The position numbers were made by a program, and so were the translations under genes. A DNA stretch of 64,000 nucleotides from Halovenus rubra. GTDB taxonomy: Archaea > Halobacteriota > Halobacteria > Halobacteriales > Haloarculaceae. Below are positions 11,807 through 28,330 of this stretch, piece after piece. Each line of letters opens with the position of its first letter. The stretch's first letter is position 1. The stretch is from the NCBI RefSeq assembly GCF_026586665.1, contig NZ_JAODIY010000009.1:372001-436000 (forward strand), read 5' to 3'. Below the pieces are notes generated by a model. It saw nothing but the letters and a program-made list of their open reading frames with translations, did no database searches and was not told the DNA's origin.

Positions 11807-12538
11807 TCAGGATGTGGCGTCAAAGGTAACCTGAACGCTGTATGATACAGAGACCTCGCCGGTCTGAATGCTCGTTTTCGAAGTACCTGCACCGTCCTCT
11901 CCAACAGGTGCCGAAGAGAAGCTGACGGGCTGATAATGACGCTGAGCGGCATCAACATTGGTGACGCCAGTAATAACGAGGTCGCTAGTGCTTGCGATGG
12001 TATCCGCTTGGTCGCGTGCGTCATCCATCGCTGTCTCGATAGCTTCATCGCGGAGATCTTGGCGCGTCTCTTCGGAAAGAGTCATTCTAAGATTGGTTAC
12101 TTCTGCTCCGGCACCGGTTGCGACACTGACAATATTCTCGACCTCATCCGGGTTGTCGACCGTAATTTCGAAGCCGTGCACTCCGACAAGCTCGGGTCCG
12201 TCGGACTTCTCTCTGTATGGCTTGCGAATCTCATAGCTTGTCGTCTTGTACTCCGCATTCGTTTCGTCCAAAGCGTCTTCGAGTTCAGCACTCTGTCCAG
12301 CAATCTTATCACGGATTGCTGCAGCCTCTTCACCCTCAGCTCGCAGGGCAATGTTGATTATCGCTTTGTCAGGTTGTGCCTGAGAGTCTCCAACTGCATC
12401 GACCGATATCTGCTGGTTTTCGTTTGATTCCTGTACCGAGTCGGCACCCACAGCACCCGAAACAGCCATCGCTCCGGTGAGCGCGACTGCAAGCACTGTC
12501 AGACCGACGAGCAGGGCAGCAAGGTAGTTCTGTTTCAT
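11807..12538 (-). CDS. SIMPL (DUF541) domain protein, exported
   Basis: 243 residues. The N-terminal signal (KQNYLAALLVGLTVLAVALTGAM) is a single hydrophobic helix followed by an Ala/Gly-rich cleavage region. The remainder fits the SIMPL/DUF541 fold: ISVDAVGDSQAQPDKAIINIALRAEGEEAAA at the start of the mature part and ATGAGAEVTNLRMTLSEETRQDLRDEAIETAMDDARDQAD in the middle, ending in the VSVSYSVQVTFDA strand. Bacterial relatives are periplasmic proteins linked to oxidative stress or signalling; the archaeal role is unknown. It has a leaderless-type promoter on its own strand. Confidence 0.88.
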   Translation of the reverse strand: MKQNYLAALLVGLTVLAVALTGAMAVSGAVGADSVQESNENQQISVDAVGDSQAQPDKAIINIALRAEGEEAAAIRDKIAGQSAELEDALDETNAEYKTTSYEIRKPYREKSDGPELVGVHGFEITVDNPDEVENIVSVATGAGAEVTNLRMTLSEETRQDLRDEAIETAMDDARDQADTIASTSDLVITGVTNVDAAQRHYQPVSFSSAPVGEDGAGTSKTSIQTGEVSVSYSVQVTFDATS

Positions 12539-12545
12539 ACACTGT

Positions 12546-12561
12546 CTGCTTGAACAGGCAG
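12546..12561. promoter_or_regulatory. Near-palindrome between TATA box and start of the SIMPL gene
   Basis: CTGCTTGAACAGGCAG is a 16-base near-perfect inverted repeat (CTGC.TG AA CA.GCAG) lying between the TATA-like box and the start codon at 12538, where a repressor could sit. Function is inferred from position. Confidence 0.3.
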
Positions 12562-12565
12562 GGGG

Positions 12566-12572
12566 TTATAAA
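12566..12572 (-). promoter_or_regulatory. TATA box of the SIMPL gene
   Basis: TTTATAA on the minus strand, 28-34 bases upstream of the ATG at 12538; a good archaeal TATA match. Confidence 0.5.
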
Positions 12573-12881
12573 CACGGCAGGCACAAACAGCCATTTGAAC
12601 GAACCTACTACAACTCAACCGTCTCGAGGTCACTGGTTTTACAGAGTTTGTCTCTCGTCATCACAGAAATCAGAGCTTTCGGTACGCCTGCGAGACTCGC
12701 CAGTAGACGGGTGTTCTACCCGACTAACTTGGTAGCCGTGTTATCGCCGTTCACTCTATACCCACAACCCACCCAGTCGAACTGCTTGTCGTCGCGGTTG
12801 TTCTCGTATCTAAATTCACAGCGAATCGACCGTGAATTCGCCGGACTATTTGTTAACATTTCAAGGAATCTGTTGTGGAAA
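12573..12881. other. Intergenic stretch without a recognisable gene
   Basis: About 310 bases between divergent genes. Short open frames lack start signals and protein-like composition. The right third is AT-rich and leads into the promoter of the AAA ATPase gene. I see no RNA gene. Confidence 0.5.
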
Positions 12882-12891
12882 AATAATTAAG
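12882..12891 (+). promoter_or_regulatory. TATA box of the AAA ATPase gene
   Basis: AATAATTAAG is centred 28 bases before the ATG at 12915, consistent with a leaderless transcript. Confidence 0.5.
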
Positions 12892-12914
12892 CAGTACTGC
12901 ATAACGTACACGAG

Positions 12915-13991
12915 ATGGACGGGGACAAGAACGGGATGAAATCCACTAACGTCGACGGGTTTCAGGGGAAAGACAAGAACGGGGGTTCTAAGACCGACGA
13001 ACGACCGAACCGGTTCGTCGAGATGATGGCGGGCGACTACGAGAAAGAGGGTGTCTTCAGCAGCCGGTTCGCTGAAATTAAACCAATTCTGTTATCATTC
13101 GGTCGTGCTCTCGGTGGCCAACCAGAACATCTCGACGACCTGCCGTTCACCGAGGAATCGGGGACTGAAAAAATGCCAGAGCCGTTGTACGTCCGTCACG
13201 ACGAAGAGATGCTGACACAGCTGACGAGTTGGCTCTTGCAGGGACAACATATCGGGCTTGTCAGTCCGTATGGAACGGGCAAGACCGCACTCCGAGAAAT
13301 TGCAGCTCGTGACCTCGGTGACCGAGACGATTTTGTCGTCGCAAACGTGAAAAACCCAAACGCGACGACTGAACGTGGTCTCTACGAGGGCGTTATCAAG
13401 GCTGCCCGCGACGCCGGCTACAAAATCGACCCAGAGAATTACTGGCAGGTTCGCAACGGGATTCCATGGGCAACTGCTGAGACACGGGATGCAGTCCGAG
13501 AGACCAGTCAAAAGGCAAGAAAAGACGACACGACAGTGCTTCTTATCGTCGACGAAATCGAAGACCTTCCTACAAAACTACTCTCTCCGCTCCAGACAAC
13601 GGGTGACCTCGGCGTGCGGCTTTTTCTCTCTGGCACGCCGGAAGGCAAAGAGCGACTACATGAGTTCCGTGAGACACTTGATTCACGGGTCCGCTACTAT
13701 GAAGAAATCAATCCATTCTCGCCAGCAGACATTGCCGAGTACATCGCACGGTCGTTTGCATACTTCTGTGATGAATCGTACGATGGACAGCAGCCACCGC
13801 TATTCACTGCTGAAGCCATCAAGTGGATTCACGACCAAACAGATGGGAATCCTCGGGAGGTGCGGCTAGAGTGTATGGACCTCTTTGCGCGTGCTGCTTT
13901 CGTCTGGCATCGTTCCGGTCATGATATCGGACGCATCAATATTACACCGGCGCTGCGTCATAGAAATATCTCGATGGCCCCGCCGGACTGA
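12915..13991 (+). CDS. AAA+ ATPase (ORC/ExeA-like), unassigned role
   Basis: 358 residues. After a charged, disordered N-terminus (about 1-90) comes a P-loop ATPase: Walker A GLVSPYGTGKT at 114-124, Walker B VLLIVDEIED at about 209-218, a sensor-1-like LFLSGTPEG, and a C-terminal helical lid with IKWIHDQTDGNPREVRLECMDLF, where GNPR is the sensor-2-like motif also seen in Cdc6/ExeA-type proteins. It lacks the winged-helix domain expected for a replication initiator, so it is more likely an ORC-related or ExeA-like regulatory ATPase. It is monocistronic. The partner is not evident from neighbours. Confidence 0.75.
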   Translation: MDGDKNGMKSTNVDGFQGKDKNGGSKTDERPNRFVEMMAGDYEKEGVFSSRFAEIKPILLSFGRALGGQPEHLDDLPFTEESGTEKMPEPLYVRHDEEMLTQLTSWLLQGQHIGLVSPYGTGKTALREIAARDLGDRDDFVVANVKNPNATTERGLYEGVIKAARDAGYKIDPENYWQVRNGIPWATAETRDAVRETSQKARKDDTTVLLIVDEIEDLPTKLLSPLQTTGDLGVRLFLSGTPEGKERLHEFRETLDSRVRYYEEINPFSPADIAEYIARSFAYFCDESYDGQQPPLFTAEAIKWIHDQTDGNPREVRLECMDLFARAAFVWHRSGHDIGRINITPALRHRNISMAPPD

Positions 13992-14084
13992 AATATAAAA
14001 TCGCTATTAAATAGCCGCCCTGACTCCAGCGTCAGGTACGTATCAATTTCTACTGGCTAGGTGTGGTTACCGCTTAGAATATTG

Positions 14085-14576
14085 CTATACTTTCTCAAGG
14101 AACGGAAACATCGCACCGAGGACGAGTCCATACAACGCGTGCCACCCAACCAGTGATGTCGTCACATATGGCATCGATTCAATTGTCGAAACGCCGACAA
14201 AATCGACCCAAACAGGCATAATAAACCCTGTAGCAACCAGCGAGAGTACCAGACCGTAGACAACACCAGCAAGTGCCGTCTTCCAGAGTGAGTTTGTTAC
14301 TTTAGCCAGACTTGGGTCTGTGAGTACGAGCGCAAATATAGCCCCGAATACTGTTCCGTGGACTAAGTGTGTGGCCAGACCAATTGCCAGCGCGTTCTGA
14401 AACCCGTACATCCCAGCGATTGTATCACTCAACATTGAGATATCGACTGCCACAATTGCGATGCTTGTTAGCAACGTGGCTATGAATCCAGCTACTGTCC
14501 CTCCACGAACTGCTGGGCCATCTTCAAACGGCGATATCTCGTCAGGCTCTGCTCCGTAGTAGTCTGAGATTGCCAT
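14085..14576 (-). CDS. Small membrane protein (DUF6789-like), function unknown
   Basis: About 163 residues with four membrane helices (roughly residues 27-47, 62-84, 100-122 and 140-160 from MAISDYYG). Similar small haloarchaeal membrane proteins are sometimes labelled DUF6789 or histidine-kinase-like, but I see no kinase motif. The frame extends to a Met at 14600, but CTATTTT about 25-31 bases upstream of the Met at 14576 supports the latter as a leaderless start, and the extension is only eight residues. It lies next to the left edge of the AT-rich island. Confidence 0.65.
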   Translation of the reverse strand: MAISDYYGAEPDEISPFEDGPAVRGGTVAGFIATLLTSIAIVAVDISMLSDTIAGMYGFQNALAIGLATHLVHGTVFGAIFALVLTDPSLAKVTNSLWKTALAGVVYGLVLSLVATGFIMPVWVDFVGVSTIESMPYVTTSLVGWHALYGLVLGAMFPFLEKV

Positions 14577-14803
14577 GTTAAATAATAACACCCACAGCAC
14601 AAAATAGCTATCTCTACTTCATATCAGTTCGACAATTCTGCACAAAGCCAACTGAAACTGTGTGAGTGTCTATATCGGCCAACTTCGTTACGTCTCTTTT
14701 TTCGGTCGGGGTAGTCAGACACAGTCTGACGCGCAGCAAAATTGTACGAGATTTTGTGACGGCGTGGAACGTTTTTTCGCGGACTCACTAAACTAGGAGT
14801 AGG
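14577..14803. other. Intergenic stretch at the left island edge
   Basis: Holds the promoter of the membrane-protein gene, a perfect 7-base inverted repeat GTCAGAC-aca-GTCTGAC near 14715-14731, and a CAAAAT...ATTTTG repeat just to its right. No coding frame is convincing. Confidence 0.4.
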
Positions 14804-14902
14804 TCACTCCGAAGGAACGTCCTGGAAGTAGGAAATCTCTGCCTCAAGAAACAATCGGGTCTCGTCGCGGGTGAGTAGATAGAAGAAGTCTACGTGAGCG
14901 TA
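14804..14902 (-). pseudogene. C-terminal fragment of a truncated gene
   Basis: In the third minus-strand frame, beginning just after an in-frame TGA and ending at a TGA at 14804-14806, lies a 32-residue segment with very protein-like composition (FFYLLTRDETRLFLEAEI, then SYFQDVPSE). It has no start codon of its own and overlaps the end of the ParB-like gene in another frame. It therefore looks like the tail of a gene whose body was lost when the island was inserted or rearranged. I cannot name the parent family. Confidence 0.45.
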
Positions 14903-15663
14903 TCAATTAGATCAGGATGATCTGCCGACTGCTGGTCACCAGATTGAATTGTCTCTCTGGTCTGTTGCCATTCTGTGTGCCGAACTGCAACTCGCACCGG
15001 AATTTTATCGAGGTTCAATACCTTTGCAATTGCCAGTCTGTTTTGACCAACCCGTCGCCAAAGCAGTTGCCCATCCCGACCAATGTCCACATTTACTTCG
15101 TGTATGTTTGGATGAAGTCCATCATTATTTTTTGCGTGGGCACGGCTTCGATTTTGCCGATATACCTCTCTGTTGGTCAAATAGCCATCAGTTGCTATCG
15201 AATTATATAAATTTTCAATTTCTTCACATCTCTTTTCGAAGTCGCTCATAGACTTATATCCCCATGCGTCTCCCCTCGTATTCAGTTCCTGTTGAAATAC
15301 GCTATACAATGGCGTCTCACGCCAAGGTACGCTGTTTTCAAAATGCAGCTTGATAGATTGTGCGACAGGGTTTTCTTCGATGAATTTTTTTGTCGATTGG
15401 TCCCAATCCCCTGACCGAACTTCACCGCTATGTCCAAAGTCGAGTCCCGAGATATTCTCAATCTTGTCCGGGTTAACCTGGATTATTTTGAAAGGATCTG
15501 CATCGGTATGTGTCCCCCATATTTTCAAGCGATACTTGGTATAGATGTTCGTACCTTCTCGAAAGAGGTAGAAAATAATATCATTGAATATGGGCTTTTG
15601 ATTAATTCGTTTTCCTACGATGCTGAAAAATAGCAGGTGCCGAATTGCTCGCCAAAAGATCAT
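14890..15663 (-). CDS. ParB/sulfiredoxin-like-fold protein in a surface-polysaccharide island
   Basis: 257 residues, AT-rich codon use. The C-terminal 70 residues carry HEVNVDIGRDGQLLWRRVGQNR and LAIAKVLNLDKIPVRVAVRHTEW (about 188-232), the ParB N-domain-like pattern G(Q/R)(N/H)RLAIAK seen in haloarchaeal proteins beside glycosyltransferases. The family also includes small-molecule kinases such as the free-serine kinases, so a phosphotransferase role is possible rather than DNA binding. The N-terminus is hydrophobic (IRHLLFFSIVG) but not a clear signal peptide. It is co-oriented with the next four island genes. Confidence 0.6.
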   Translation of the reverse strand: MIFWRAIRHLLFFSIVGKRINQKPIFNDIIFYLFREGTNIYTKYRLKIWGTHTDADPFKIIQVNPDKIENISGLDFGHSGEVRSGDWDQSTKKFIEENPVAQSIKLHFENSVPWRETPLYSVFQQELNTRGDAWGYKSMSDFEKRCEEIENLYNSIATDGYLTNREVYRQNRSRAHAKNNDGLHPNIHEVNVDIGRDGQLLWRRVGQNRLAIAKVLNLDKIPVRVAVRHTEWQQTRETIQSGDQQSADHPDLIDTLT

Positions 15664-15701
15664 CTGTTTGTCTCGTTAGGGGTTTTCAGCCATATGAATA
15701 T

Positions 15702-15899
15702 TCACAAATTTTTCTCTTCTCTGAGTTGCAATAGAGCGTCTTCGGTGGCATCTGCGAACTCTTGAAACTCTTTTTCGGAACACTCAATGCGAAGAGGGCC
15801 AGCATGGATATGAATTATATCGCCTTCGTTATACTCGACCGTATACTCGGTACCATCAGAAAGTTCAAATTCCGACAGAGCCGATTCAACAATTCCCAT
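15702..15899 (-). CDS. Small acidic protein, paralogue of its upstream neighbour
   Basis: 65 residues, strongly acidic. The core GDIIHIHAGPLRIECSEKEF (about 26-45) aligns with GESIHIHWRNLRLEMTVDDY of the adjacent 74-residue protein, followed in both by a helix with FA and E..L. The fold looks like a short beta hairpin plus helix. I do not recognise a named family, though IHIHxxxLRLE-type small domains occur beside haloarchaeal surface-polysaccharide genes. Its ATG at 15899 overlaps the end of the upstream gene by 14 bases, implying translational coupling. Confidence 0.6.
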   Translation of the reverse strand: MGIVESALSEFELSDGTEYTVEYNEGDIIHIHAGPLRIECSEKEFQEFADATEDALLQLREEKNL

Positions 15900-16110
15900 T
15901 GTTTAATTCCTCCGATGCTTTTATAATTTCAGTCGCAAACAGTTCATAATCGTCAACAGTCATTTCGAGGCGTAGGTTTCGCCAGTGGATATGAATCGAC
16001 TCCCCGATGTTATCTTCTATAGCCAGCTTGGTGCTTGCCAAATCCGGCTCAGAGTCAATCTGTGTCTGTTTGAGATCCCGGACAAATACATTCATTAGCG
16101 GCATTAGCAT
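15886..16110 (-). CDS. Small acidic protein with IHIHxxxLRLE motif
   Basis: 74 residues from the first Met at 16110; MNVFVRDLKQ at residue 6 is an alternative start. The core IHIHWRNLRLEMTVDDYELFA is shared with the downstream 65-residue protein, so the two are tandem duplicates. The 14-base overlap suggests coupled translation and perhaps a hetero-oligomer. Function is unknown. The position between an NTase-fold gene and a ParB-like gene points to the same polysaccharide-related job. Confidence 0.6.
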   Translation of the reverse strand: MLMPLMNVFVRDLKQTQIDSEPDLASTKLAIEDNIGESIHIHWRNLRLEMTVDDYELFATEIIKASEELNNGNC

Positions 16111-16146
16111 TCCAAGAGTAGATTAGTGTTTTGATCGTCAGAATGG

Positions 16147-16920
16147 CTAGTAACCAGAAAACGAAATCAGCGCTGGTTTGATTTGATTGTATCGACTATC
16201 TTCAATATGGCTGAGGACAGTATCATCGGCTTCGAAGAACAGGAGAGAGAGTAGTTGCGTAAACGCTTGGTGCGACTCCGGGTTCGAGAGTACATCTTGC
16301 TTCAACTTGTCGCACTGATTGATATAATAATCCGGAAACTTTCCTTCGTATTTGAACACTCCGCGACAAACGAGATGTGCTAATTCATCTGGCGGAGCAG
16401 GGATTGGAACACCTTCGACGTATTCCGATCGTTTGTACAACAGATCCTCAACAAGAGGGTTAACGCGGACTTTTCTACCATTCTTTGGTGATTTGTATGC
16501 AAGATGGTTCATAAAGTGGAATATAACATTGCCCTGCTCTCGTTTTTTTTCGGAGTATTCGGCTGCAAGTTCATCGAAATCGTCTCTATCGGGAAGCAGT
16601 GCATCCTTAATAGATGAATAAACAATTGTTGGGTCTGAGCGGATTAATCGAATAGTTTCTTGTGGGTACTCCAGTACCCTTCGTGCAAGCCCTTTTATAC
16701 GACTGACTGCCGTCGATCGCCGCTCGAACCCATATCTCTCGGAAATCTCTACTGCAGCGCCCAAGTCGTCAGGCCGGATTACAATATCAATATCACCGCC
16801 ATCAACGCGTTCTGGAAGTTGTTGATAATTGCGTGGAATAACAAAATCAACACCAGCGTCTTTGAAATCTGAAAAGATAGATCGAATTATCTGCTGTTCG
16901 GTCTCAGAATACTCAACCAT
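16147..16920 (-). CDS. Nucleotidyltransferase-fold protein of the polysaccharide island
   Basis: 257 residues. The N-terminal segment VDFVIPRNYQQLPERVDGGDIDIVIRPDDL (about 24-53) carries the nucleotidyltransferase-superfamily signature, a Gly-Gly followed by DxD (GGDIDIV at 41-47), preceded by a helix and strand as in the minimal NTase fold. The rest, with HFMNHLAYKSPKNGRKVRVNP and a helical C-terminus, resembles uncharacterised proteins of capsule and teichoic-acid type loci. The likely role is nucleotidyl or phosphoryl transfer to a sugar or polyol; the substrate is unknown. A TATA-like TTTATATG lies about 30 bases upstream, giving a probable leaderless start at 16920. Confidence 0.65.
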   Translation of the reverse strand: MVEYSETEQQIIRSIFSDFKDAGVDFVIPRNYQQLPERVDGGDIDIVIRPDDLGAAVEISERYGFERRSTAVSRIKGLARRVLEYPQETIRLIRSDPTIVYSSIKDALLPDRDDFDELAAEYSEKKREQGNVIFHFMNHLAYKSPKNGRKVRVNPLVEDLLYKRSEYVEGVPIPAPPDELAHLVCRGVFKYEGKFPDYYINQCDKLKQDVLSNPESHQAFTQLLSLLFFEADDTVLSHIEDSRYNQIKPALISFSGY

Positions 16921-17323
16921 TTATATAATACTATCGTGTCCAACATTCATATAAACATTTGTTTTTATACGCATCAACCCGGATATCGGCAGGCCCTTCG
17001 CAGATTGATTGGTTCGAGTCCTGACCGAGTTCCTGATTTGAACTTATTTTGAGATGAAATATCACTCTAAGTGCCAATTTTAGCTGTCGCCAGCAGTCCC
17101 CTGTTAGGTTGAACGTCGCTGCTCCTGTTGTGAGCTACTAGTGCCTATTTGAGTCTTTGCCGCCATAGAAACGTCGCATGAATATTCTGTGCGGTGATTT
17201 ATCTGATGACGAGTTTATTGAATATGAAGAAGATCATTCTACCAGTTAAGTGTGTGAAGAATCGAAATTTGTCATAAGAGACTGATATTTTCACAGTCGA
17301 TGTTCTGGGGAATATAGAAGCGG
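16921..17323. other. AT-rich gap inside the island
   Basis: About 400 bases with no convincing gene on either strand. It holds the promoter of the NTase-fold gene at its left end. A stretch near 17005-17035 (GGTTCGAGTCCTGACCGAG) resembles the 3-prime end of a tRNA but does not form a proper T-stem. Nothing else is recognised. Confidence 0.4.
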
Positions 17324-18751
17324 TTAACGGAAGAGTTCCTGCTCAAGTACCGAGCACTGCTTTTGTATCGCGTCTTGTAATCTTTCGCCTGATTTATTAT
17401 TCAGACTTGGATAACTCTCATGGAAGATTGCAGTGAGATACTTGATTAGTTCAGACTCGTACTCATCGGTATGTCTGTGCTCTGAAAGGGCGTCATAGAG
17501 TACAGCAGGTAAGCCTTTGGGATCACCTGCTTCATATACCTGTGGAAGTTTGCTATAATTTGGTTCCCCGAAAGTGAGAACAGGCTTCTTATAAAACACA
17601 CCTTCTAGACCAGCCGTTCCTGTGACAGTAGTGACTGCATCAGAACTTTTGATTAGCTCATGAGAGTCAACATGTGGGTGAATCAGGACAGTGTTTGGGA
17701 GTTTATCAATCTCTTTGTAGTACCTTGGCCGTCGGATTTTGTATTTATACAACGCAGGATGTTCTTTCACGTACAGGTTGTAATCGACAGGCAAGCTCTT
17801 AGATAGATCTCGAATCACGTCTGGCAACTCAACATACATCGGTGCTTTAACCATTGTAGACGCCTCCGGTTGCAAATGAAGCGGGAAATAAACGTAGTTG
17901 CTGTTGTAGTTTGGCCGTTGGAACAGATCACGGTAGTCGACGTATTTTCTCCATAAGAGCTGTTTGACTGACTCTTTGATTCGACGCTGTGTGCTGTCGT
18001 GATAGAAATCGTCATTATAGTATCCCAACTTCTTCTGATACCAGTAGTTTACCAGCTCATAGAGTTTAGATGGATCTCCTGTTTGCGAGGAGTCACTGTC
18101 CGTATATTCTGGAGTGACACCTTCTTTACGGAATTTTCTCAGAAAGGTCGTCGCTTCCTGATAAGATTCAGAATACACGGTTTCGACATCAGATCCCATC
18201 TTCTCGTATCGGTCCCAGATTGTGTTGAACCGACCAGCCACTGTTTTTTGCAGCACTTCCCTATCAAGTACTCTCGTGTGCGCTCTTTGTACGGCAGTTC
18301 CGTACTCTTCATTCACAATCCGGAATGGTATCCAGGTATAGGCTGAATCTACCGCAGAAGTTAGATATATATCCGGATTGAAACTATCGAACAGTTCAAT
18401 GAAAAAGTCAAACCATCCTTGAACTAGCCGTTTTTGTTTCTCCGGTGTATACTCAATGTACTTCCGATCTGCCCAGAGTGCGGGCCATAAGTTGGGAGCC
18501 CCATATCGGTTCTCAAGCTCGCTAATTCTTTCTGGGTCGTATTGGTTTTCAACGATATTCTGATGAACGTCTTGTACACAGTACAGTGGATCGTAATTGA
18601 TATTGTTTTGTTCTTTGAGGAATTTGTAGGGTTTCCGTCCGACAACAGTGGCTCCAATAGTATCTATACTGGTCTGTTTAAGTAACTCACAGGTTACACG
18701 ATGGTAGATTTCTGTTGAATTCCAATTGTAGTTTAAAAAGAGATCGGTCAT
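17324..18751 (-). CDS. KpsS/LipB-like capsular polysaccharide glycosyltransferase
   Basis: 475 residues, AT-rich. The C-terminal half fits the capsule polysaccharide biosynthesis family (KpsS/LipB, GT-B-like): YFPLHLQPEAST at 288-299, YVKEHP at 327-332, TVTGTAGLEG at 375-384 and KKPVLTFG at 388-395. These are the conserved blocks of that family, with the HP and GTxGLE motifs forming the likely nucleotide-sugar pocket. The N-terminal half (about 1-210) is a separate less conserved domain. Bacterial relatives add Kdo linkers to capsule lipids; in an archaeon the acceptor is probably different. An AATATTTT box at 18774-18781 is 23-30 bases upstream of the start. Confidence 0.75.
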   Translation of the reverse strand: MTDLFLNYNWNSTEIYHRVTCELLKQTSIDTIGATVVGRKPYKFLKEQNNINYDPLYCVQDVHQNIVENQYDPERISELENRYGAPNLWPALWADRKYIEYTPEKQKRLVQGWFDFFIELFDSFNPDIYLTSAVDSAYTWIPFRIVNEEYGTAVQRAHTRVLDREVLQKTVAGRFNTIWDRYEKMGSDVETVYSESYQEATTFLRKFRKEGVTPEYTDSDSSQTGDPSKLYELVNYWYQKKLGYYNDDFYHDSTQRRIKESVKQLLWRKYVDYRDLFQRPNYNSNYVYFPLHLQPEASTMVKAPMYVELPDVIRDLSKSLPVDYNLYVKEHPALYKYKIRRPRYYKEIDKLPNTVLIHPHVDSHELIKSSDAVTTVTGTAGLEGVFYKKPVLTFGEPNYSKLPQVYEAGDPKGLPAVLYDALSEHRHTDEYESELIKYLTAIFHESYPSLNNKSGERLQDAIQKQCSVLEQELFR

Positions 18752-18773
18752 GATTTATCGATTTTTGGGCACG

Positions 18774-18781
18774 AATATTTT
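18774..18781 (-). promoter_or_regulatory. TATA-like box of the KpsS-like gene
   Basis: AAAATATT on the minus strand, 23-30 bases upstream of the ATG at 18751. Confidence 0.4.
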
Positions 18782-18985
18782 CTGTTGAGTTGATTGGTGG
18801 GTGCGCCGTCGGTTTTTGTGAACAGATGTGCCGTCATATCAATGAAGAGCAGCTGTACACCTATTAGCTAGTATCAAAAGACTATACATAATTGTCACGG
18901 TTTGAGCAGTCTACATTTTATACAGGGTGCCATAGATTCCTTCTCAAACTGTGGCGGAGAATATTTCTTGGAGTCTATATCATAA

Positions 18986-19513
18986 ATTGCCCGCGTCGGT
19001 AGAGATAGCCACGGGGTTGGTTTGGATGTTGTGAAGCACCAGCGGACACCCAAGCAGGTAATGAAGCTTGGTGTTTGGATCCACATAGCTGGCCTATCTT
19101 TCTCAAAGACCATCTCTATCCTTGAGAAGTTGGATGCCTAGTGATGTCGGAATGCTGTCCACGCTTGGGGCTGATTTACAACCGACCAGCGGCAAGACTG
19201 TGAATAGATTACGGTTGACGAAACTGTGATTCGAGTCGACGACTAGTAGTACTGCCTGTACGCCGCTGCTGATCTGGAATCGACCAAATTACGTCATTTC
19301 CGGCTGTTTTCCACGACAACAACCGCTCTCACAGATTACTTTCTTAAAGAACTCCGGAATGCTGTCGAGCATATCTCTAGAGAAGTAAAACACCGACTCT
19401 CTTCGTTCTTAAACTGTTTTGGTCACGTTGAACGGGCGACCGCTGAAGATTACCCGCAGAGAATGCTTTTTCGATACAATATGACAAGAATAAAAACTAC
19501 AACGAAGCCGTAA
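18986..19513 (+). pseudogene. Decayed IS6-type haloarchaeal transposase
   Basis: Translating all three plus frames gives successive pieces of a DDE transposase of the haloarchaeal IS6-like type. RTPKQVMKLGVWIHIAGLS and SKTISILEKL come first, then two stops. CRNAVHAWG follows, then ADLQPTSGKTVN in a shifted frame. The piece VDETVIRVDD with the first catalytic Asp starts at 19214, then two stops, then LYAAADLE, RLFSTTTTALT and FLKELR. An internal deletion removes the second Asp region. The remainder, with the EVKHRLSSF and ATAED segments and the YNM end, closes at a stop at 19511-19513. Stops, frameshifts and the deletion make it inactive. I could not identify terminal repeats. Confidence 0.75.
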
Positions 19514-19560
19514 AACGAGATAACTGGCTCAGTTCCATCTGTGATAATGACTGACAGAGG

Positions 19561-19570
19561 TTTATATAAT
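19561..19570 (+). promoter_or_regulatory. TATA box of the S8 protease gene
   Basis: TTTATATAAT ends 20 bases before the in-frame GTG at 19591 and begins 30 before it. It decides the start: a leaderless GTG rather than the TTG at 19585. Confidence 0.5.
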
Positions 19571-19590
19571 TCAAATACTGTGTCTTGTTC

Positions 19591-22500
19591 GTGGACCGAC
19601 ATACACATTCGCCGAACCGGCGGGAGTTCATCGCCGGCACGGTTGGGGTCGGTGTAGCAGGATGGGGGATTGAGTCTGGTGTTGGCACGGCATTTGCTGA
19701 GTATCCAGAAACCGAAGACACAGCCGGCACAGCCCAAGTTGTCGTCCGGTTTGAACCGGCAGAAGGTGCCGGAAAGGCGATGCTACAACGTCACGCACGC
19801 ACAACTCAGCGTCCTTTCAAACAGTTCGTCGCTGAACAGTCAGGTGTCAGTATCGAGCGAACATTCTGGGCGGCAAACGCCGCACTGGTGTCTGTCAACC
19901 CCAAGAGGGTCAGCCGGAACGCAATCCTAGCAATCGAGCACGTCACCACAGTACACACGAACGCTGCTGTCGGGGTACACGGCACCGCCAACGGGACAGA
20001 CACGGCGGCGACTGGCCTGGGCCCCAGCCAGAGCGAGGAGAGCGGCGTTGCATACCACTTGGAAGAAATGGACGTACCACAGGCGTGGGATGTATACGGA
20101 ACCCAAGGTGAGGGCGTAGATGTTGCAGTTATCGACACTGGGATTGATACCACCGGGCACGAGGAACTGGCAGCCTCCCTGGAGCGTGGCGGATGGGCGG
20201 AGTTCGACGAGAGTGGTAACCGGATTGACTCAGAGCCAAATGCCAAAACAGAGTTCCCACAGGCTGGCCACGGAACGGCCGTCAGCGGAGCCATCGCGGG
20301 CGGTGCCACTGATGATGGAACCAAGTACGGCGTCGCACCCGGGGTAAATCTCTACAAGGCCCAGATGGTCAGCCAACCACCCGAGGGAATTCGGACCCTC
20401 GCGGTGTTCGCGGGCATCGAATGGGCTATCGAACAGGATGTCGATATCATCTCGATGAGTCTCGGACTTCCAATTTACAATCAGGCAATCGTGGAGCCAA
20501 TCCGAAACGCCATCGAGAGCGGACTTCTTGTCGTCAGCGCCGTCGGGAACTCCGGACAATACACGGGTTTTTCGCCAGCGAATATTCCGGGCGTGCTCTC
20601 GGTCGGTGGTATCGACGACAATCGGGAACTGTATGAAAATACTAGCGGTGAACGTATCGACACCGACCGGTACTGGGGAGACACTACGGCCGACTGGTGG
20701 CCGGAGGAGTTCACCGTTCCTGACGTGACTGCTCCCGCCGTCGATACGCTGGGGCCGGTACTCGACGGCCAGTTCGACCGTAATTCTGGCACAAGTTTTG
20801 CAGCACCCTGTGTCGCCGGCGTCGCTGCGCTCGCCATGGCTGTGACCGACGCCGACAACGACGCTATTAAAAATGCGATTACCGAAACAGCTCGCCATCC
20901 AGCCGCCGAGGACGCGTTCGACATCGACCCCGGGCACGACGACAGATACGGGCAAGGCATCGTCTCAGCACTTTCGGCTATCAGTCAACTCGAAGCCAGT
21001 GAGACTGTTTCTGGAACGGTCACAGATGCGTCCGGTCGCCCACTCGACAGTGTGACAGTCGCTTCGGAAGTTGGACTCACAACCGAGACAGACACTCAGG
21101 GCAGGTACGAACTCACAGTCCCACCGGGGACGCAGCCAATCGGCGCTATTGGTCCCGGTTTCGACACGACAGCGACGCGTATCGACCCAGCGGATACTGA
21201 CACCCAAGCGTTCCAGCTCAATCAGACAGATGACCTCGATGTCAAGATGGCTGACCGGATGTCGACACGGATAGACACAGGAGAAGAGGTGACGGCGACG
21301 TTCGACGTTGCGAACGCCCAAACGGTTGTCATCGAGATGAGAGCCGATGGGCCGTTCGATCCCAAAGAGTTAGAACTCAGCGTCGCCGGTACTGCGGCGG
21401 CGCTTGGAGAACCGGTCAGTATCGACCCGGACCAGACACAGCTTACGGTTGGCATCAACGTCGCTGAATCAGTCTTGGTCGCACAGTTCCAACTCTCTTA
21501 TGAGTTCACGGGCGGCGGTAAGTCAGTCAGCGGCAAGGGTCATCTGGTGTACGCACACCCTGACCCATTTGTCATCTCTCCGGGTGACCCACCGACACTG
21601 CAGGTCCCAATCGACTTGGTTGCGCCTCGAACGACAATTGAACTCATGGACGGACAAGGGGACGCAGTCGCCACGTCAGATGACGGTGCCGGAATTGTTA
21701 TTGATAAACCACTGACCTTGACAGCCACAGACGGAGCCACACCCGAGGTTCAGTTCTCTAACGAGGGAGCCCAGAAGCCTGCAGCCGTGTTGGTCAACGC
21801 TAACGACGTGACTATCTCGGGGCTTGTCGTCGACGGGACAGGTGCCAGAACGGGTGTTCAGGTAGCCCGTACGGGGGCCATCGCGAAGGGGTTACCACAG
21901 CCGTCCGGTGTGACGGTCCACGACCTTGCCGTAGCCGGAGCAGACACAGCCGTCCGTGCGGGCCAAGCCCCGGCACTCCGAATCGTGGACAACGAGTTGA
22001 CCGCGAACACAACAGCCGTCGGCGTCGGTCGCCAGGTGGATTTCCAGAACACGACTACCGTCACCAGCCGGGCAAAGACGACGGTCCGAGGGAATGCAAT
22101 CACCGACGTTGAGACGGGTATCGACGTAGCCGGTCAGGTGGGGGCTATCGAAGGAAATTCGCTCTCGAACATCGACACTGTGGGAATCCATCTCGGGACA
22201 CCGCGGTTCCTGAGTCGCCACTGGGGGCAGGATGTTGGCCCTATCCGCTCAAACACGATTACGGGTGCGAACCGCGGGATTGTGGTCTCGGGGAGTATGA
22301 CTCGCCCGGTCGAGTCGAACACGCTATCTGACATCACGGAAACAGCATTCGTCGTCGACGGGGCCATTCTCGCCCCGATTCGGGCCAACAGTGTTGATGG
22401 CGCACAGAGGGGGCTCGACATTGCTAACGATGCAGAGGTTGCGAAGGTGACCGACAACGAGTTTGTGAACATTCAGCAACCGGGCGACGAGGAAGGTTCG

Positions 22501-22746
22501 GAGGATGCAGACGAAGCCGAAACGAGTGAGCAAGACAACACAGACGAGGAGACAATGTCTGGAGACGACACCGAATCGACGGCTGACCCGGAAGACGACA
22601 TGGCAACCAAGACAGACGAAGCCGGCGAATCAGAGTCAGATGCTTCTGGTCCCGGGTTTGGCATCGGCAGCGCGCTTGTCAGCCTCGGTGGCGTAGGCTA
22701 CCTACTGCAACGGCGATTGTCAGATGAAGACACAGAATCAGGGTAG
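19591..22746 (+). CDS. Tat-exported subtilisin-like protease with beta-helix and PGF-CTERM anchor
   Basis: About 1051 residues. A Tat signal with RREF and an Ala/Gly-rich core is followed by a pro-region (to about 125) and an S8 catalytic domain with Asp in VIDTGID (about 182), His in GHGTAVSG (about 227), the oxyanion Asn in AVGNSG and Ser in GTSFAAP (about 402). A carboxypeptidase-regulatory-like repeat follows (about 475-530), then a right-handed beta-helix of NosD type (about 690-975; VRGNAITDVETGIDVAG and similar coils). An acidic Thr/Glu linker leads to PGFGIGSALVSLGGVGYLLQRR, the archaeosortase PGF-CTERM signal. It is therefore a lipid-anchored surface protease. The start is the GTG at 19591, chosen from the TATA spacing. 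It flanks the island. Confidence 0.88.
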   Translation: MDRHTHSPNRREFIAGTVGVGVAGWGIESGVGTAFAEYPETEDTAGTAQVVVRFEPAEGAGKAMLQRHARTTQRPFKQFVAEQSGVSIERTFWAANAALVSVNPKRVSRNAILAIEHVTTVHTNAAVGVHGTANGTDTAATGLGPSQSEESGVAYHLEEMDVPQAWDVYGTQGEGVDVAVIDTGIDTTGHEELAASLERGGWAEFDESGNRIDSEPNAKTEFPQAGHGTAVSGAIAGGATDDGTKYGVAPGVNLYKAQMVSQPPEGIRTLAVFAGIEWAIEQDVDIISMSLGLPIYNQAIVEPIRNAIESGLLVVSAVGNSGQYTGFSPANIPGVLSVGGIDDNRELYENTSGERIDTDRYWGDTTADWWPEEFTVPDVTAPAVDTLGPVLDGQFDRNSGTSFAAPCVAGVAALAMAVTDADNDAIKNAITETARHPAAEDAFDIDPGHDDRYGQGIVSALSAISQLEASETVSGTVTDASGRPLDSVTVASEVGLTTETDTQGRYELTVPPGTQPIGAIGPGFDTTATRIDPADTDTQAFQLNQTDDLDVKMADRMSTRIDTGEEVTATFDVANAQTVVIEMRADGPFDPKELELSVAGTAAALGEPVSIDPDQTQLTVGINVAESVLVAQFQLSYEFTGGGKSVSGKGHLVYAHPDPFVISPGDPPTLQVPIDLVAPRTTIELMDGQGDAVATSDDGAGIVIDKPLTLTATDGATPEVQFSNEGAQKPAAVLVNANDVTISGLVVDGTGARTGVQVARTGAIAKGLPQPSGVTVHDLAVAGADTAVRAGQAPALRIVDNELTANTTAVGVGRQVDFQNTTTVTSRAKTTVRGNAITDVETGIDVAGQVGAIEGNSLSNIDTVGIHLGTPRFLSRHWGQDVGPIRSNTITGANRGIVVSGSMTRPVESNTLSDITETAFVVDGAILAPIRANSVDGAQRGLDIANDAEVAKVTDNEFVNIQQPGDEEGSEDADEAETSEQDNTDEETMSGDDTESTADPEDDMATKTDEAGESESDASGPGFGIGSALVSLGGVGYLLQRRLSDEDTESG

Positions 22747-22830
22747 CACACCTACGCGGAGTCTTTTCGCGGTAGTGACGAAAACCAGTGGCACTAACCG
22801 AATTTCTCATACGGGTTACAATAACACCAG

Positions 22831-22880
22831 CATGTCAACTACCTCGGGGTCAAGCCCCGTAGCATCCGCCTTGATTCTTC
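22831..22880. repeat. Palindromic element, possibly an IS200/IS605 end
   Basis: Between two convergent genes: CTA(22839-22841)..CGGGG(22845-22849)-tcaag-CCCCG(22855-22859)TAG(22860-22862) forms a stable hairpin, flanked by CATGTCAA and GCATCCGCCTTGATTC. It could be a shared terminator (a T5 tract follows about 30 bases later) or the end of a transposable element. No transposase frame is present nearby. Confidence 0.3.
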
Positions 22881-22982
22881 TGTGAATATTGTTTTTAGAT
22901 GACTATTTTATAAAATACGCAAGGGATTGCAGAGAGACCGAAAATAGCACCATAGACAACTGGTCCTCTCACCCTGTGGGCC

Positions 22983-24038
22983 TCACTCAGAGTGGTCGTC
23001 GATTCGAACGAGCACCTTGATTTCCTCGCGTTCGTCCATCGCCCGGTACCCCTCAGACACACCGTCGAGGTCTACTGTCTTTGTGAATATCGGCGACGGG
23101 TCAAGTGTGCCGTCGAGGACATCTGCGAGCAAGTCATCAGCGTACGCCCGCACTGGTGCGACCCCACCACAGAGAGAGATATTATCACTAAACAGGGAGA
23201 ATACGTCGAGCCCTGCCTCCTCTACGCCATGAGGAACGCCAACATATCCGACAGTTCCGCCGGGTCGACAGATGTCGATTGCCGTCTCCATGGCTGAGGC
23301 TGCACCGACACATTCGAGGACATGGTCAGTGCCTCCTCCGGTCAGTTCACGTGCCCGTTTGACGCCTGCCTCACCGCGTTCGGCCACCGTTTCTGTCGCG
23401 CCGAACTCGGCGGCAAGTGAGAGTCGGTCCTCGTGGTGGCCCATCGCGACAATTTGCTTTGCGCCGAGACGGCGGGCCGCGAGTACACCACAGAGCCCGA
23501 CAGCCCCATCACCGACGACGACACAGGTGTCGCCCTCTCCGACACCGGCATTGACTGCCGCGTGGTGCCCGGTACCCATCACGTCGGTCAGCGGAAGTAT
23601 TGACTTCAATGTCTCCTCGTCGTTAGCGTACCTATCGGGCACACGCACAAGTGTCCCGTCTGCTTCGGGTACTCGGACGTACTCGCCCTGTCCGCCACCG
23701 TTTTCGCCGCCCCAAGAGCCGCCATTCGTACAGGATGTGTGCAGGCCGCGCCGGCAGAACTCACACCGGCCACAGCTGATGACAAACGGCGCGAACACGC
23801 GGTCGCCGGGCTTGAGGCTGGTAACATCTGTCCCGGTTTCTTCGACGATTCCCATCGGCTCGTGTCCGACCGCCGAACCCGTCTCGCGGTCACTCTCGCC
23901 GCGGTAGAACCACAGGTCGGAGCCACAGATAGCAGTATGTGTGACCCGAATCAGCGCACCGCGAGGGGAGTCAAGCGCCGGCTTTGGTACCTCCTCAACT
24001 GCAATCTCGCCCGGGCCGTTGTACATTGCTGCGCGCAT
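22983..24038 (-). CDS. Zinc-dependent alcohol dehydrogenase (MDR family)
   Basis: 351 residues from the Met at 24038 (MRAAMYNGPGEIAVEEVP). The frame opens 16 residues earlier, but TTTTGAGTA about 25-32 bases upstream of 24038 and the family N-terminus support the inner Met. Catalytic zinc ligands are seen in TAICGSDLW and GHEPMG. The structural zinc loop is CGRCEFCRRGLHTSC. The Rossmann segment is VVVGDGAVGLCGVLAARRLGA. The sequence resembles glutathione-independent formaldehyde/threonine-type dehydrogenases with a GGENGGGQGEYVRVPEAD insert. The substrate is not determined. The gene is single and points toward the protease gene. Confidence 0.9.
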   Translation of the reverse strand: MRAAMYNGPGEIAVEEVPKPALDSPRGALIRVTHTAICGSDLWFYRGESDRETGSAVGHEPMGIVEETGTDVTSLKPGDRVFAPFVISCGRCEFCRRGLHTSCTNGGSWGGENGGGQGEYVRVPEADGTLVRVPDRYANDEETLKSILPLTDVMGTGHHAAVNAGVGEGDTCVVVGDGAVGLCGVLAARRLGAKQIVAMGHHEDRLSLAAEFGATETVAERGEAGVKRARELTGGGTDHVLECVGAASAMETAIDICRPGGTVGYVGVPHGVEEAGLDVFSLFSDNISLCGGVAPVRAYADDLLADVLDGTLDPSPIFTKTVDLDGVSEGYRAMDEREEIKVLVRIDDHSE

Positions 24039-24118
24039 ACCGGTCAATTGGGTTCGGTACTCAAAACGGTTCTCGCCTAGAGACACAGATTACGACTGTG
24101 GCGACCATACAGGAGGGG

Positions 24119-24811
24119 TCAACAGCCTGAACACGTACAGTACGCGTCACAGACAGGGTTGTCACAGTCTGGGTTCCGGGCTGTACAATAGGTGCGACCG
24201 TGACGGATTAGTAGTACGTGCAGCGGGTAGGTCAGTTCGTCCGGAACAAGATTTCCGAGTTGGTCGTGTGCATGCTCGTTTGTGGCGGAGTCCGAGACAA
24301 GTCCAAACCGCTTAGAGACGCGCTCGACGTGCGTATCGACAGCCATGGTTGGCTTACCGAAATGGAAGTTCAACACCACACTCGCCGTCTTTGGCCCGAC
24401 GCCTTTGATATCTGTCAGCCAGCCTTTTGCGTCGTCTGTCGACATAGCGTCGAGAAATGCTAGCGAATATGCGCCACCGGTCTCGTCGCGGATAGCCGCG
24501 AGTGCCCGCTGAATTCGCGCCGACTTCTGTGTGGGCAGGCCAGCGACCCGAATCGTCTCTTCGAGTTCCGCTTGTTCGGCGGCTTCGATGTCAGCAAAGG
24601 TGTCGTACCGCTCAAACAGGCTGTCTGCAGCCCGCCGGGTGTTCTGGTCGGCGACGTTCTGTGAAAGGATTGTGGTCAACAACTGCCGAACCCCAGCGCC
24701 AGGGTTCGCATCTGGATCAGCGCCGTGTGCTTCCTCGCGGTCGACCGGTTCGTACAGTGTGACGAGATCATCGTGTAGGTCTCGAACGCGTGATTGTGTC
24801 CACTCAGTCAT
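24119..24811 (-). CDS. nth: Endonuclease III (base-excision DNA repair glycosylase/AP lyase)
   Basis: 230 residues. The helix-hairpin-helix IKGVGPKTASVVLNF (about 135-149) has the catalytic Lys141, and VDTHVERVSKRFGLV holds the catalytic Asp159. A C-terminal Cys cluster (Cys209, 216, 221, 225, 227 and 230) accommodates the 4Fe-4S cluster of the family. The N-terminal LLTTILSQNVADQNTRRA is also conserved. It removes oxidised pyrimidines. The Cys spacing (six, four, three between the first four) is slightly different from the E. coli CX6CX2CX5C pattern, so which four ligate iron is open. Stands alone. Confidence 0.9.
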   Translation of the reverse strand: MTEWTQSRVRDLHDDLVTLYEPVDREEAHGADPDANPGAGVRQLLTTILSQNVADQNTRRAADSLFERYDTFADIEAAEQAELEETIRVAGLPTQKSARIQRALAAIRDETGGAYSLAFLDAMSTDDAKGWLTDIKGVGPKTASVVLNFHFGKPTMAVDTHVERVSKRFGLVSDSATNEHAHDQLGNLVPDELTYPLHVLLIRHGRTYCTARNPDCDNPVCDAYCTCSGC

Positions 24812-24968
24812 GCCCGAGTCTTTGACTCGACGGATATGAATGCGGTGACAGCTTCGTCTCCATGGCGTCGCCGGCCAACAGCAACCACCCGTCAGCGGTT
24901 ACGGCAACAAACTCACACAGTTCCTGCCAGACCGTGTTGCGGTCACTGTTTGAGCGAGTTCTGTATTA

Positions 24969-25835
24969 CTATGGCTCCCCAATAGTCACGACAGGAACTG
25001 GCGCCGAGCGCACAGTTTTTTCAGCAACACTACCAAACAGAATCCGGTCCGTTCCCTGTCTCCCTGTCGTTCCCATCCCGACTGCATGGATATCGTTCGA
25101 TTCGATACAGTCAAGCAGTGTCTCGATTGGTGTCCCGTGTTCGACGTGACGGGTGATATCGGTAATCCCACGCGCGTTTGCCTCCGAGGCAATAGCTTCG
25201 ACAGCTTCGGTCGCGGCCTGTTCGCTTTCGTTGCTGTCAACTGTCGACCGGACATCTAACCCGAGTGCAGCATCGTCGACAACAGAGAGGATATGCACAG
25301 TTGCATCACTCGACGCCGCAAGTGAGAGCGTGTGTTTGGCAGCGCGTGTCGCTGCGTCACTTCCATCAGTCGGGATGAGGATATGTTCATACGGGAACTG
25401 AAGCGTCTCATCTGGCTGCATGCGGACCGTCAGAACAGGGACCGAGGAGAGACGGACGACCTTCTCGGAGACACTTCCGAGAAGGTGGCGTGGAAGTCCT
25501 GTACGCCCATGCGTTGGCATTACGACCAAGTCTTGGTCGTATCGTTCAGCGTAATCGACGATTGTCGGTGCTGGATTCCCTTGAACGACATCGGTTTCGT
25601 ATGAAAGGCCAACTGTATCCAGCGTTTTTGCAGCTTCCTCAACGATGTCGTAGCCCTTCTCAACAAGCACGTCGATAGTGTCATTCTCGACAACAGTGAC
25701 ACTGTCACGCGCTGTATCAGCAACGTACAGCACATGAATGGTCGCGTCAGACCAATGAGCGACCTCGCTTGCGTGGTGGAGGATTTCTGTTGAACCATCG
25801 CTACCGTCGAAGGGGAGAAGGATATTCTCGTACAT
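24969..25835 (-). CDS. Universal stress protein with two UspA domains
   Basis: 288 residues made of two tandem UspA folds. The first is residues 1 to about 140 (NILLPFDGSDGSTEILHHA ... MPTHGRTGLPRHLLGSVSEKVVR). The second is about 147-288 (HILIPTDGSDAATRAAKHTL ... GMGTTGRQGTDRILFGSVAEKTVR). Each has the Gly-rich ATP-binding loop (GxxGx9G(S/T)), so both halves may bind ATP. Soluble cytoplasmic stress-response protein; target unknown. It is monocistronic, with an upstream gap before the CNNM gene. Confidence 0.9.
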   Translation of the reverse strand: MYENILLPFDGSDGSTEILHHASEVAHWSDATIHVLYVADTARDSVTVVENDTIDVLVEKGYDIVEEAAKTLDTVGLSYETDVVQGNPAPTIVDYAERYDQDLVVMPTHGRTGLPRHLLGSVSEKVVRLSSVPVLTVRMQPDETLQFPYEHILIPTDGSDAATRAAKHTLSLAASSDATVHILSVVDDAALGLDVRSTVDSNESEQAATEAVEAIASEANARGITDITRHVEHGTPIETLLDCIESNDIHAVGMGTTGRQGTDRILFGSVAEKTVRSAPVPVVTIGEP

Positions 25836-25921
25836 GGCTGGATAGGCAGTCCTAGAACTGTCGAGACCCTAATAACCCTGCCACGTTCTCAAAGTACGAC
25901 AGCCGACTGTGATACTGTCCG

Positions 25922-27319: not shown

Positions 27320-27868
27320 CTCTGATTATGAGGGTGGCACAGTAACCCTTGGGGAACCGAGAGTGAGTGCATGTTGGGTCAACAGTCTCTGTATTAGCTG
27401 AGACATGATACGTTTGTTTCTGTGACTGTGTTCTTTGTCTTCGTGTCTGTTCTGGACGTATAGTCAAAACCCGCAGGACAGAGCGTTTCAACGATATCCC
27501 GCGACGAAAAGCGACCGTACGCTCAACAAGACCAGCACACGCAGCATTCACACGAAGACTTCAGTCCGTGGCTGGTCTTGATGTGCGTGTTTGTCGATTG
27601 ACGACTCGTCTTTGAGTACGACAGTCAAAATCAAGCAAACACACAAAAAACTCACCGATATATCGACCACGTCGCCAGCACATCTTGCGTGGTAGCTACT
27701 GCATTATGCGACAAAAACAGTTCAAAACTCAAAACAAAGCTACAGTATTTTGCTCGTCGAATGAGTCGTGAGATCGAGTATCACGCTATAGTATGGCGAA
27801 TTTGGACCAAAACATCGATCCAAATGACAGGGTTTATTACCAACAGATTCCCAGTGTCTAATGCGTTC
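27320..27868. other. Intergenic stretch upstream of tRNA-Glu
   Basis: About 550 bases between the CNNM gene and tRNA-Glu. Short open frames exist on both strands but none has a promoter, family resemblance or acidic haloarchaeal composition. The right end carries a TATA-like TTTATTA at 27833-27839, about 30 bases before the tRNA. I see no further RNA gene. Confidence 0.5.
27833..27839 (+). promoter_or_regulatory. TATA-like box of tRNA-Glu
   Basis: TTTATTA, 30-36 bases upstream of the first tRNA base at 27869. Confidence 0.35.
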
Positions 27869-27943
27869 GCTCGGTTGGTGTAGTCCGGCCAATCATTTTG
27901 GCCTTTCGAGCCGAAGACCAGGGTTCAAATCCCTGACCGAGCA
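27869..27943 (+). tRNA. tRNA-Glu (anticodon UUC)
   Basis: Acceptor GCTCGGT (27869-27875) pairs with ACCGAGC (27936-27942), discriminator A at 27943. The anticodon stem TTGGC/GCCGA (27898-27902/27910-27914) encloses a 7-base loop with TTC at 27905-27907. T-arm GGGTTCAAATCCC. The extra arm is short. No CCA is encoded and no intron is seen. All four arms can be drawn, with one G.U pair in the anticodon stem. Confidence 0.95.
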
Positions 27944-28018
27944 TTTTGTTGAATAACATACTGAGCCTAAGCTCAAGAGGAGTGCACTTATCGTTGCACG
28001 GCGTGTAGTAGGTCATGC

Positions 28019-28306
28019 ATGCCTGAAGAAGTCTTGTTCAAATCAGAAAGCGACCAGAGTCGAGAAGATATCGCAGCGTACCTGCGCCGTATCGCCGAGA
28101 AGCTTGACCAAGGCGACGGGATAACGCTGAAGTCGGGCTCTGAATCTGTGACGATGGAACCGCCAGCCCATCCAACGTTTGAGGTCAAGGCTGAACGTGA
28201 GGGGCCAACCGACGGGCCAAATGAGTTGAGTCTCGAATTCGAGCTTGAGTGGGATGCAAACGCCAGTGAACAGAGTGACGAGACTGGCCAGTTGAAAATA
28301 GAGTGA
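28019..28306 (+). CDS. Amphi-Trp domain protein
   Basis: 95 residues. It begins MPEEVLFKSESDQSREDIAAYLRRIAEKLDQGDGITLKSGSESVTMEPP, the consensus opening of the amphi-Trp domain, then a beta strand VKAEREG and an acidic LEFELEWD strand. The domain is small and widespread in archaea; its function is not established. The last 15 residues are an acidic tail. It lies 75 bases after tRNA-Glu and converges on the histidine kinase gene with 24 bases between. Confidence 0.85.
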   Translation: MPEEVLFKSESDQSREDIAAYLRRIAEKLDQGDGITLKSGSESVTMEPPAHPTFEVKAEREGPTDGPNELSLEFELEWDANASEQSDETGQLKIE

Positions 28307-28330
28307 GGCTGTGAGACATTCAGTGAGGCA

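Follow-up and report, generated by a model that had tools for sequence, protein, structure and literature searches.

The low-GC island and its genes

The window analysed here is a stretch of 64,000 nucleotides from the haloarchaeon Halovenus rubra (contig NZ_JAODIY010000009.1, positions 372,001 to 436,000). It contains a low-GC island with five intact minus-strand genes, which follow one another as KpsS-like, nucleotidyltransferase (NTase), tinyA, tinyB and ParB-like (Table 1). Four of these five, tinyA, tinyB and the NTase and ParB-like genes, make up what sequence comparison identifies as a conserved cross-domain module. The fifth, KpsS-like, is a glycan gene that is co-located with the conserved module and lies outside it.

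An earlier reading of this DNA from its letters alone (the sequence-only reading) had described five co-directional genes, a lowered GC content and a decayed transposase at the edge, and each of these is borne out. Sliding-window GC falls to 0.42-0.46 at about 14.6-19.5 kb vs 0.50-0.60 on either side. Per-gene composition agrees, with GC 0.43-0.44 and GC at third codon positions (GC3) 0.39-0.48 in the five island genes vs GC 0.50-0.61 and GC3 0.50-0.64 in the genes flanking the island. tinyA and tinyB overlap by 14 bp, the ParB-like gene begins 39 bp downstream of tinyB, and KpsS-like is separated from the NTase gene by 403 bp without a long open reading frame (ORF). At the right edge, the plus strand holds two pieces in broken frames, at 19028-19138 and at 19208-19480, that resemble an IS6-like transposase of the haloarchaeal locus L072 (tblastn; E 4e-5, with 51% over 39 amino acids (aa), and E 2e-3). 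This remnant has a weak match to Pfam DDE_Tnp_IS240 (PF13610, E 0.13) and is present in a single copy in the genome.

Two further descriptions in that reading did not hold up. The island proteins had been called less acidic than those of the flanks, which fails for the set: only the ParB-like (13% aspartate plus glutamate) and KpsS-like (14%) proteins are low, while the NTase has 17%, tinyA 19% and tinyB 26%. At 14804-14902, where a truncated gene tail had been supposed, there is an open stretch of 31 codons with no Pfam match and no second copy in the genome, and it was not confirmed as a remnant.

Table 1. Features of the island, with positions in the window and the basis of each assignment.
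Feature	Position	Strand	Basis
Low-GC island	14600..19513	.	Sliding-window GC and per-gene GC/GC3
ParB/sulfiredoxin-like protein, 257 aa, encoded by a gene of its own and corresponding to the C-terminal part of the bacterial fusion	14890..15663	-	hhalign; predicted fold of the fusion domain
tinyB, 65 aa, small paralogous domain with HxH/HxQ motif	15702..15899	-	Alignment; homology to tinyA
tinyA, 74 aa, 'EDNIGESIHIHWRN' domain	15886..16110	-	Alignment; bacteria, archaea and phages
Nucleotidyltransferase-fold protein, 257 aa, GGDIDI motif, relative of PF14907 NTP_transf_5	16147..16920	-	Pfam; AF2 model
KpsS-like Capsule_synth (PF05159) glycosyltransferase-type protein, 475 aa	17324..18751	-	Pfam; paralogue
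Decayed IS6-like transposase remnant, right island edge	19028..19480	+	Broken frames; tblastn; PF13610 E 0.13

A four-gene module in Bacteria, Archaea and phages

The gene set had been described as mixed, but it is no one-off: four of its genes recur together in distant phyla, with KpsS-like as a separate glycan gene beside them. The tinyA alignment was scanned against one genome per species, and against viral contigs (IMG/VR). The genome scan found 40 loci, which include haloarchaea and, beyond them, Bacillota, Bacteroidota, Pseudomonadota, Campylobacterota, Planctomycetota, Omnitrophota, Spirochaetota and one DPANN archaeon; viral contigs contributed 8 more (L137-L144). With bacterial-seed profiles, tinyB and NTase genes adjoin tinyA, in permuted order, in 28/28 complete bacterial or DPANN loci (those with a long enough contig, the truncated L133 and L134 being left out) and in 8/8 viral contigs. 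The three genes likewise lie together in the haloarchaeal loci. The profile seeds were drawn in part from these loci; neither the window nor the other haloarchaea supplied any, yet they match significantly (window tinyB against the bacterial tinyB profile, E 2e-9). Within the family of the window's genome, where 146 genomes including 17 congeners were searched, the NTase and tinyA searches match the identical five genomes. Under independence, the chance of hitting the same five of 146 twice is about 2e-9 by our own arithmetic, which ignores kinship.

Most of the bacteria encode tinyA as the N-terminal domain of a ~245-aa protein, the C-terminal part of which is a ParB/sulfiredoxin (Srx)-like domain with an RDGQHRAA motif. 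Among 25 bacterial fusions that were aligned, most have tinyA and the ParB-like domain in one polypeptide. The haloarchaeal ParB-like proteins match this fusion domain with hhalign (E 3.2e-5), well beyond the controls (minimum E 0.041 in 30 column shuffles, 0.14 for reversed and 0.14-0.66 for unrelated alignments). Of the 18 haloarchaeal loci with the trio of tinyA, tinyB and NTase, 13 have a ParB-like gene no more than 7 kb away. Thus, the bacterial fusion, together with the haloarchaeal homology to its second domain, joins all four window genes.

It could be argued that the trio has a function of its own and that the ParB-like gene is a frequent neighbour in glycan loci without direct cooperation. 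In haloarchaea the ParB-like genes occur much more widely than the trio does (39 vs 5 of the 146 genomes of the family), and 5 of the 18 haloarchaeal trio loci have none nearby. However, the single bacterial polypeptide, and a proximity in haloarchaea that greatly exceeds what chance would give for a gene with one or two copies per genome, make two independent units quite improbable. About nine matches to the ParB-like family, several of them in tandem, are found in one haloarchaeal genome (G129; contigs C29, C91 and C144).

That unrelated, decaying genes came together by chance in a region of low GC is the least credible explanation. It would account for the transposase debris and the open stretch at 14804-14902 at the edges, and for the disturbed synteny around the site, but the recurrence of the same set in distant phyla refutes it for the four-gene part. 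For KpsS-like it may still apply.

tinyA and tinyB are homologous to each other (hhalign E 5e-13), and their alignments show invariant polar residues. Neither has a significant Pfam, NCBIfam, PHROGs or PADLOC family, and a PDB sequence search found no relative of tinyB. Without a family in the libraries searched, tinyA and tinyB would deserve one.

Several loci depart from the common arrangement. tinyA and tinyB are fused in one ORF in L071 (8525-8923), where the HxH motif has become CxC (ICIC). In L108 (8083-8637), an alphaproteobacterial single-cell genome, an ORF with a weak RIO-like kinase match (E 0.006) overlaps the end of tinyA, in the slot usually taken by the ParB-like domain. The tinyA-ParB protein of L131 (7965-8870) has an extra C-terminal nucleotide-binding-like domain with a weak match to the NeuD/PglB family.

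A search of a phage collection with the viral NTase gave no match, and a plasmid search recovered only a C-terminal ParB-like fragment in a Lactiplantibacillus exopolysaccharide cluster, in which no trio genes were recognised. PADLOC had no match for the five window proteins or for three bacterial homologues. As far as checked, the composition of the set is undescribed, and it is filed here among glycan-tailoring gene sets. A literature search of open-access papers found no description of the four genes together, and an earlier description elsewhere is possible.

Predicted folds of the NTase and ParB-like proteins

The window NTase matches PF14907 with E 0.011 (15.8 bits), below the curated cut-off of 31.2 bits. 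The same family is matched by 10 of 12 haloarchaeal homologues (E up to 1; best 1.7e-6), and the bacterial homologue L127 exceeds the gathering cut-off (33.0 bits). The window protein is thus classed as a relative, and not a member, of PF14907. No relative was found by PDB sequence search. A candidate match to REase_AHJR-like (PF18743, E 3e-4) was rejected, being below cut-off, present in 1 of 12 members and at odds with the NTase fold of the model.

The AF2 model of the window NTase (pLDDT 91) matches ANT(2'')-Ia, the Helicobacter pylori nucleotidyltransferase JHP933, TM1012, MenT1 and LnuA, most with probability 0.98-1.00. ANT(2'')-Ia and LnuA, both of which the model resembles, are nucleotidyltransferases that modify sugar-containing antibiotics. 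The GxDxD motif is present, and D43 and D45 are invariant in 42 NTase sequences. The third catalytic carboxylate is Asp in most sequences and His in the window, L065, L066, L051, L099, L071 and some bacteria.

MenT1 among the best structural matches, together with the NTase fold, the small partner genes and the transposase debris nearby, could also indicate a toxin-antitoxin or defence island, in which the NTase would act like MenT1/MNT toxins and the tiny proteins as antitoxins. This is very unlikely given that PADLOC matches no component, that the set is conserved in four parts instead of as a two-gene pair, and that it occurs in glycan neighbourhoods and with glycosyltransferase fusions.

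The window ParB-like protein matches no Pfam family at E up to 5, and no NCBIfam, PHROGs or PADLOC entry significantly. In the bacterial fusions, only the glycosyltransferase parts are recognised by NCBIfam and Pfam. The AF2 model of a bacterial fusion (pLDDT 89, pTM 0.83) matches ParB-N, sulfiredoxin, Noc and PadC in PDB and mostly ParB/Srx proteins in BFVD. Profile homology to this modelled domain suggests a ParB/Srx fold for the window protein. The Foldseek E-values are modest, none of them below 0.001, but the fold assignments of both the NTase and the ParB-like protein are judged sound because the structural matches are consistent and the NTase carries a GxDID motif. The protein that the sequence-only reading had called ParB-like is not a partition ParB: it has no PF02195 match and no reported helix-turn-helix (HTH) domain, and no parA is seen among the genes listed nearby. 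The DGxHR motif reads GQNR in the window. SbnI, a ParB-fold serine kinase, is among the weak best matches of two independent profiles (E 1.7 with one, 0.26-0.27 with the other). The ParB-like protein is a candidate nucleoside triphosphate (NTP)-dependent phosphotransferase or switch.

Glycan context

The module is very probably associated with glycans, and the sequence-only reading, which had proposed a part in making or modifying a surface glycan, finds support in conserved neighbourhoods, in glycosyltransferase fusions and in the paralogue of KpsS-like that lies within this genome's polysaccharide cluster. In a Pfam scan of 119 neighbour proteins of the bacterial loci, the families found include GT9 (10), GDP-mannose dehydratase (8), epimerase (8), RmlD (8), glycosyl transferase group 1 (7), GT2 (6), polysaccharide flippase (6) and UDP-sugar dehydrogenase (3). 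Several haloarchaeal loci have sugar-synthesis, glycosyltransferase or flippase-like genes, judged by eye. In the planctomycete L101, tinyA, ParB-like, GT9, GT2 and GT2 parts form one polypeptide, and on the viral contigs L139-L142 tinyA lies at the end of a protein with a weak GT8-like match.

The trio is present together with glycosyltransferases on the phage contigs L137-L144, which carry late sigma factor or ribonucleotide reductase genes. These loci suggest phage-borne modification of surface glycans. An APH-type kinase was considered as the fusion partner in phage L138 and dropped for want of Pfam support.

KpsS-like passes the PF05159 cut-off of 20 bits (48 bits, E 1.6e-12). Its paralogue, 67% identical, lies in a cluster on contig C34 of the same genome (G000:C34:40000-58000, L004), along with UDP-sugar dehydrogenase-like, flippase-like, glycosyltransferase and sulfatase-like genes. 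KpsS-like was rejected as a module member, as it has no copy in the 17 other haloarchaeal module loci. The island is not a standard capsule operon, as the sequence-only reading had also held: none of the genes expected of one (a flippase/polymerase or an ABC exporter, with glycosyltransferases) is found at 14.6-19.5 kb, and the full cluster is on C34.

Distribution and probable horizontal transfer

NTase and tinyA were not found in any of the 17 congeners searched. At the level of the order, the NTase has a match in 12 of 293 genomes, three of these weak. In the orders of two bacterial carriers (196 and 296 genomes), strong matches are found only in the carriers themselves, and the module is rare and patchy there. 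In the congener G098, the window genes 11807-12538 and 29703-31154 adjoin, with ~330 bp between them. The 12.5-29.7 kb block (12539-29702, ~17 kb, including tRNA-Glu at 27869-27943) is absent from this syntenic site, and its subtilase is found in another context. Thus, the site has been rearranged within the genus. The absent block is larger than the island, and no exact boundaries can be assigned to a transferred segment.

In the NTase tree, the 16 haloarchaeal sequences form one group (100/99) in which families are intermixed, as would be expected from repeated exchange among haloarchaea. G016, from the family of the window, pairs with Natronococcus of the Natrialbaceae (100/96), and four viral sequences group together (95/94). 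The closest relative of the window NTase is just 42% identical, so its donor is not among the genomes sampled.

The C34 glycan cluster is likewise AT-rich (GC 0.43-0.53). Since glycan genes elsewhere in the genome share this composition, low GC alone is no proof of foreign origin, and the case for transfer rests on patchiness and phylogeny. On these grounds, the acquisition proposed by the sequence-only reading is likely: NTase and tinyA are absent in the congeners, the module is patchy and the tree mixes haloarchaeal families. Neither of the two outcomes named in advance as refuting it was seen: the GC drop is present, and the gene order is not conserved in congeners.

Proposed function

The best explanation overall, which is judged to have an even chance of being right, is that a conserved module for the tailoring of surface glycans lies next to a KpsS-like glycan gene. 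A tailoring complex is suggested by the two NTP-using folds, by the glycan setting and by small paralogous domains found both on their own and in fusions with several effectors. The paralogues tinyA and tinyB would serve as docking domains and bring the NTase together with a second effector that varies: usually a ParB/Srx-fold protein, at times one that is kinase-like or a glycosyltransferase. With NTPs, the NTase and the ParB-like protein would attach a phosphoryl or nucleotidyl group to a glycan, a glycan precursor or an acceptor of a surface polysaccharide or glycoprotein. Such NTP-dependent phosphoryl or nucleotidyl transfer falls slightly short of an even chance. A kinase role is favoured for the ParB-like protein because ParB-fold kinases are known (SerK, PMC5120207), SbnI is weakly matched by two separate profiles, and L108 has its RIO-like protein in the ParB-like slot, each of these being weak alone.

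Several observations weigh against this explanation. The neighbour counts have no random-locus control, and a few members are shared between related families. In three Selenomonadaceae, NTase, tinyB and tinyA/ParB lie in or beside a flagellar operon (L111 7061-8606, L113 370-1915 and L124 4044-5613), with fliM/fliN/Y-like genes on one side and cheY/fliO/fliP-like genes on the other (both sides seen in L111 and L124). This location is compatible with flagellin glycosylation, or possibly with a different role. The SbnI (E 0.26-1.7) and RIO (E 0.006) matches are weak. Judging from their residues, the window NTase could be non-catalytic, with His at the third carboxylate, as could the ParB-like protein, with GQNR in place of DGxHR, and local loss of activity in the window is possible.

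As the chief alternative, the module would be an NTP-dependent switch that controls how glycans are assembled. The ParB-like protein would sense an NTP and the NTase would reversibly nucleotidylate the tiny proteins, as in GlnD/PII, gating glycan assembly or chain length. ParB-CTPase folds do serve as switches and differ in NTP specificity (PMC12704722), small separate proteins whose polar residues are invariant would make suitable acceptors, and the glycosyltransferase fusions fit control of those enzymes. However, tinyA and tinyB have no invariant Tyr, Ser or Thr acceptor in common, and a patchy, locus-bound module is more typical of structural modification than of core regulation. The switch is thus an unlikely alternative, if the strongest.

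Surface polysaccharide loci are rich in "hypothetical proteins", and the module turns three of these and one uncharacterised NTase family into a defined set, open to testing, that spans two domains of life and also occurs in phages. If NTP-dependent glycan tailoring is right, it would account for some of the chemistry not yet assigned in O-antigens, capsules and archaeal surface glycans, and perhaps in flagella, and the ParB fold would gain a role in glycan biology. More speculatively, and rather doubtfully, tinyA would be a universal docking domain that plugs effectors (a ParB-fold kinase, a RIO-like kinase or a glycosyltransferase) into an NTase core, and an unknown phosphate or nucleotide group would be placed on surface polysaccharides and flagella; such complexes would be a glycan-modifying class, so far undescribed, that Bacteria, Archaea and phages share.

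Comparison with known systems

The NTase shares its fold region and GxDxD motif with PF14907 NTP_transf_5, an uncharacterised nucleotidyltransferase family, and one homologue is above the gathering score. However, the window NTase is below the cut-off, module NTases are always paired with tinyA and tinyB, and the third Asp is replaced by His in the subclade of the window protein. KpsS-like resembles KpsS/KpsC through the Capsule_synth family, whereas the island has no KpsC, KpsM or KpsT gene and KpsS-like lies outside the module.

Glycan phospho-tailoring is carried out by WbdD-type enzymes, which combine a kinase with a methyltransferase, and by LicD-type enzymes, which have an NTase fold. 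The module may do a similar job, phosphate-based modification of surface glycans, and like LicD it has a predicted NTase fold, although no sequence relation is shown and the subunit make-up is different.

The ParB of ParABS chromosome partition is alike in the predicted fold of the NTP-binding domain. It differs in that the window protein lacks a PF02195 match and an HTH or dimerisation domain, and no ParA gene is seen nearby. The words polysaccharide and nucleotidyltransferase do not occur in a survey of the ParB-CTPase fold published in 2025 (PMC12704722). SerK and SbnI are alike in the predicted ParB/Srx fold and the (D)Gx(H/N)R motif, and SbnI is a weak match of both profiles. The similarity is at noise level, however, and the ParB-like protein is fused to or beside tinyA. 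The settings also differ, SerK and SbnI belonging to serine and siderophore metabolism and the ParB-like protein to glycan loci.

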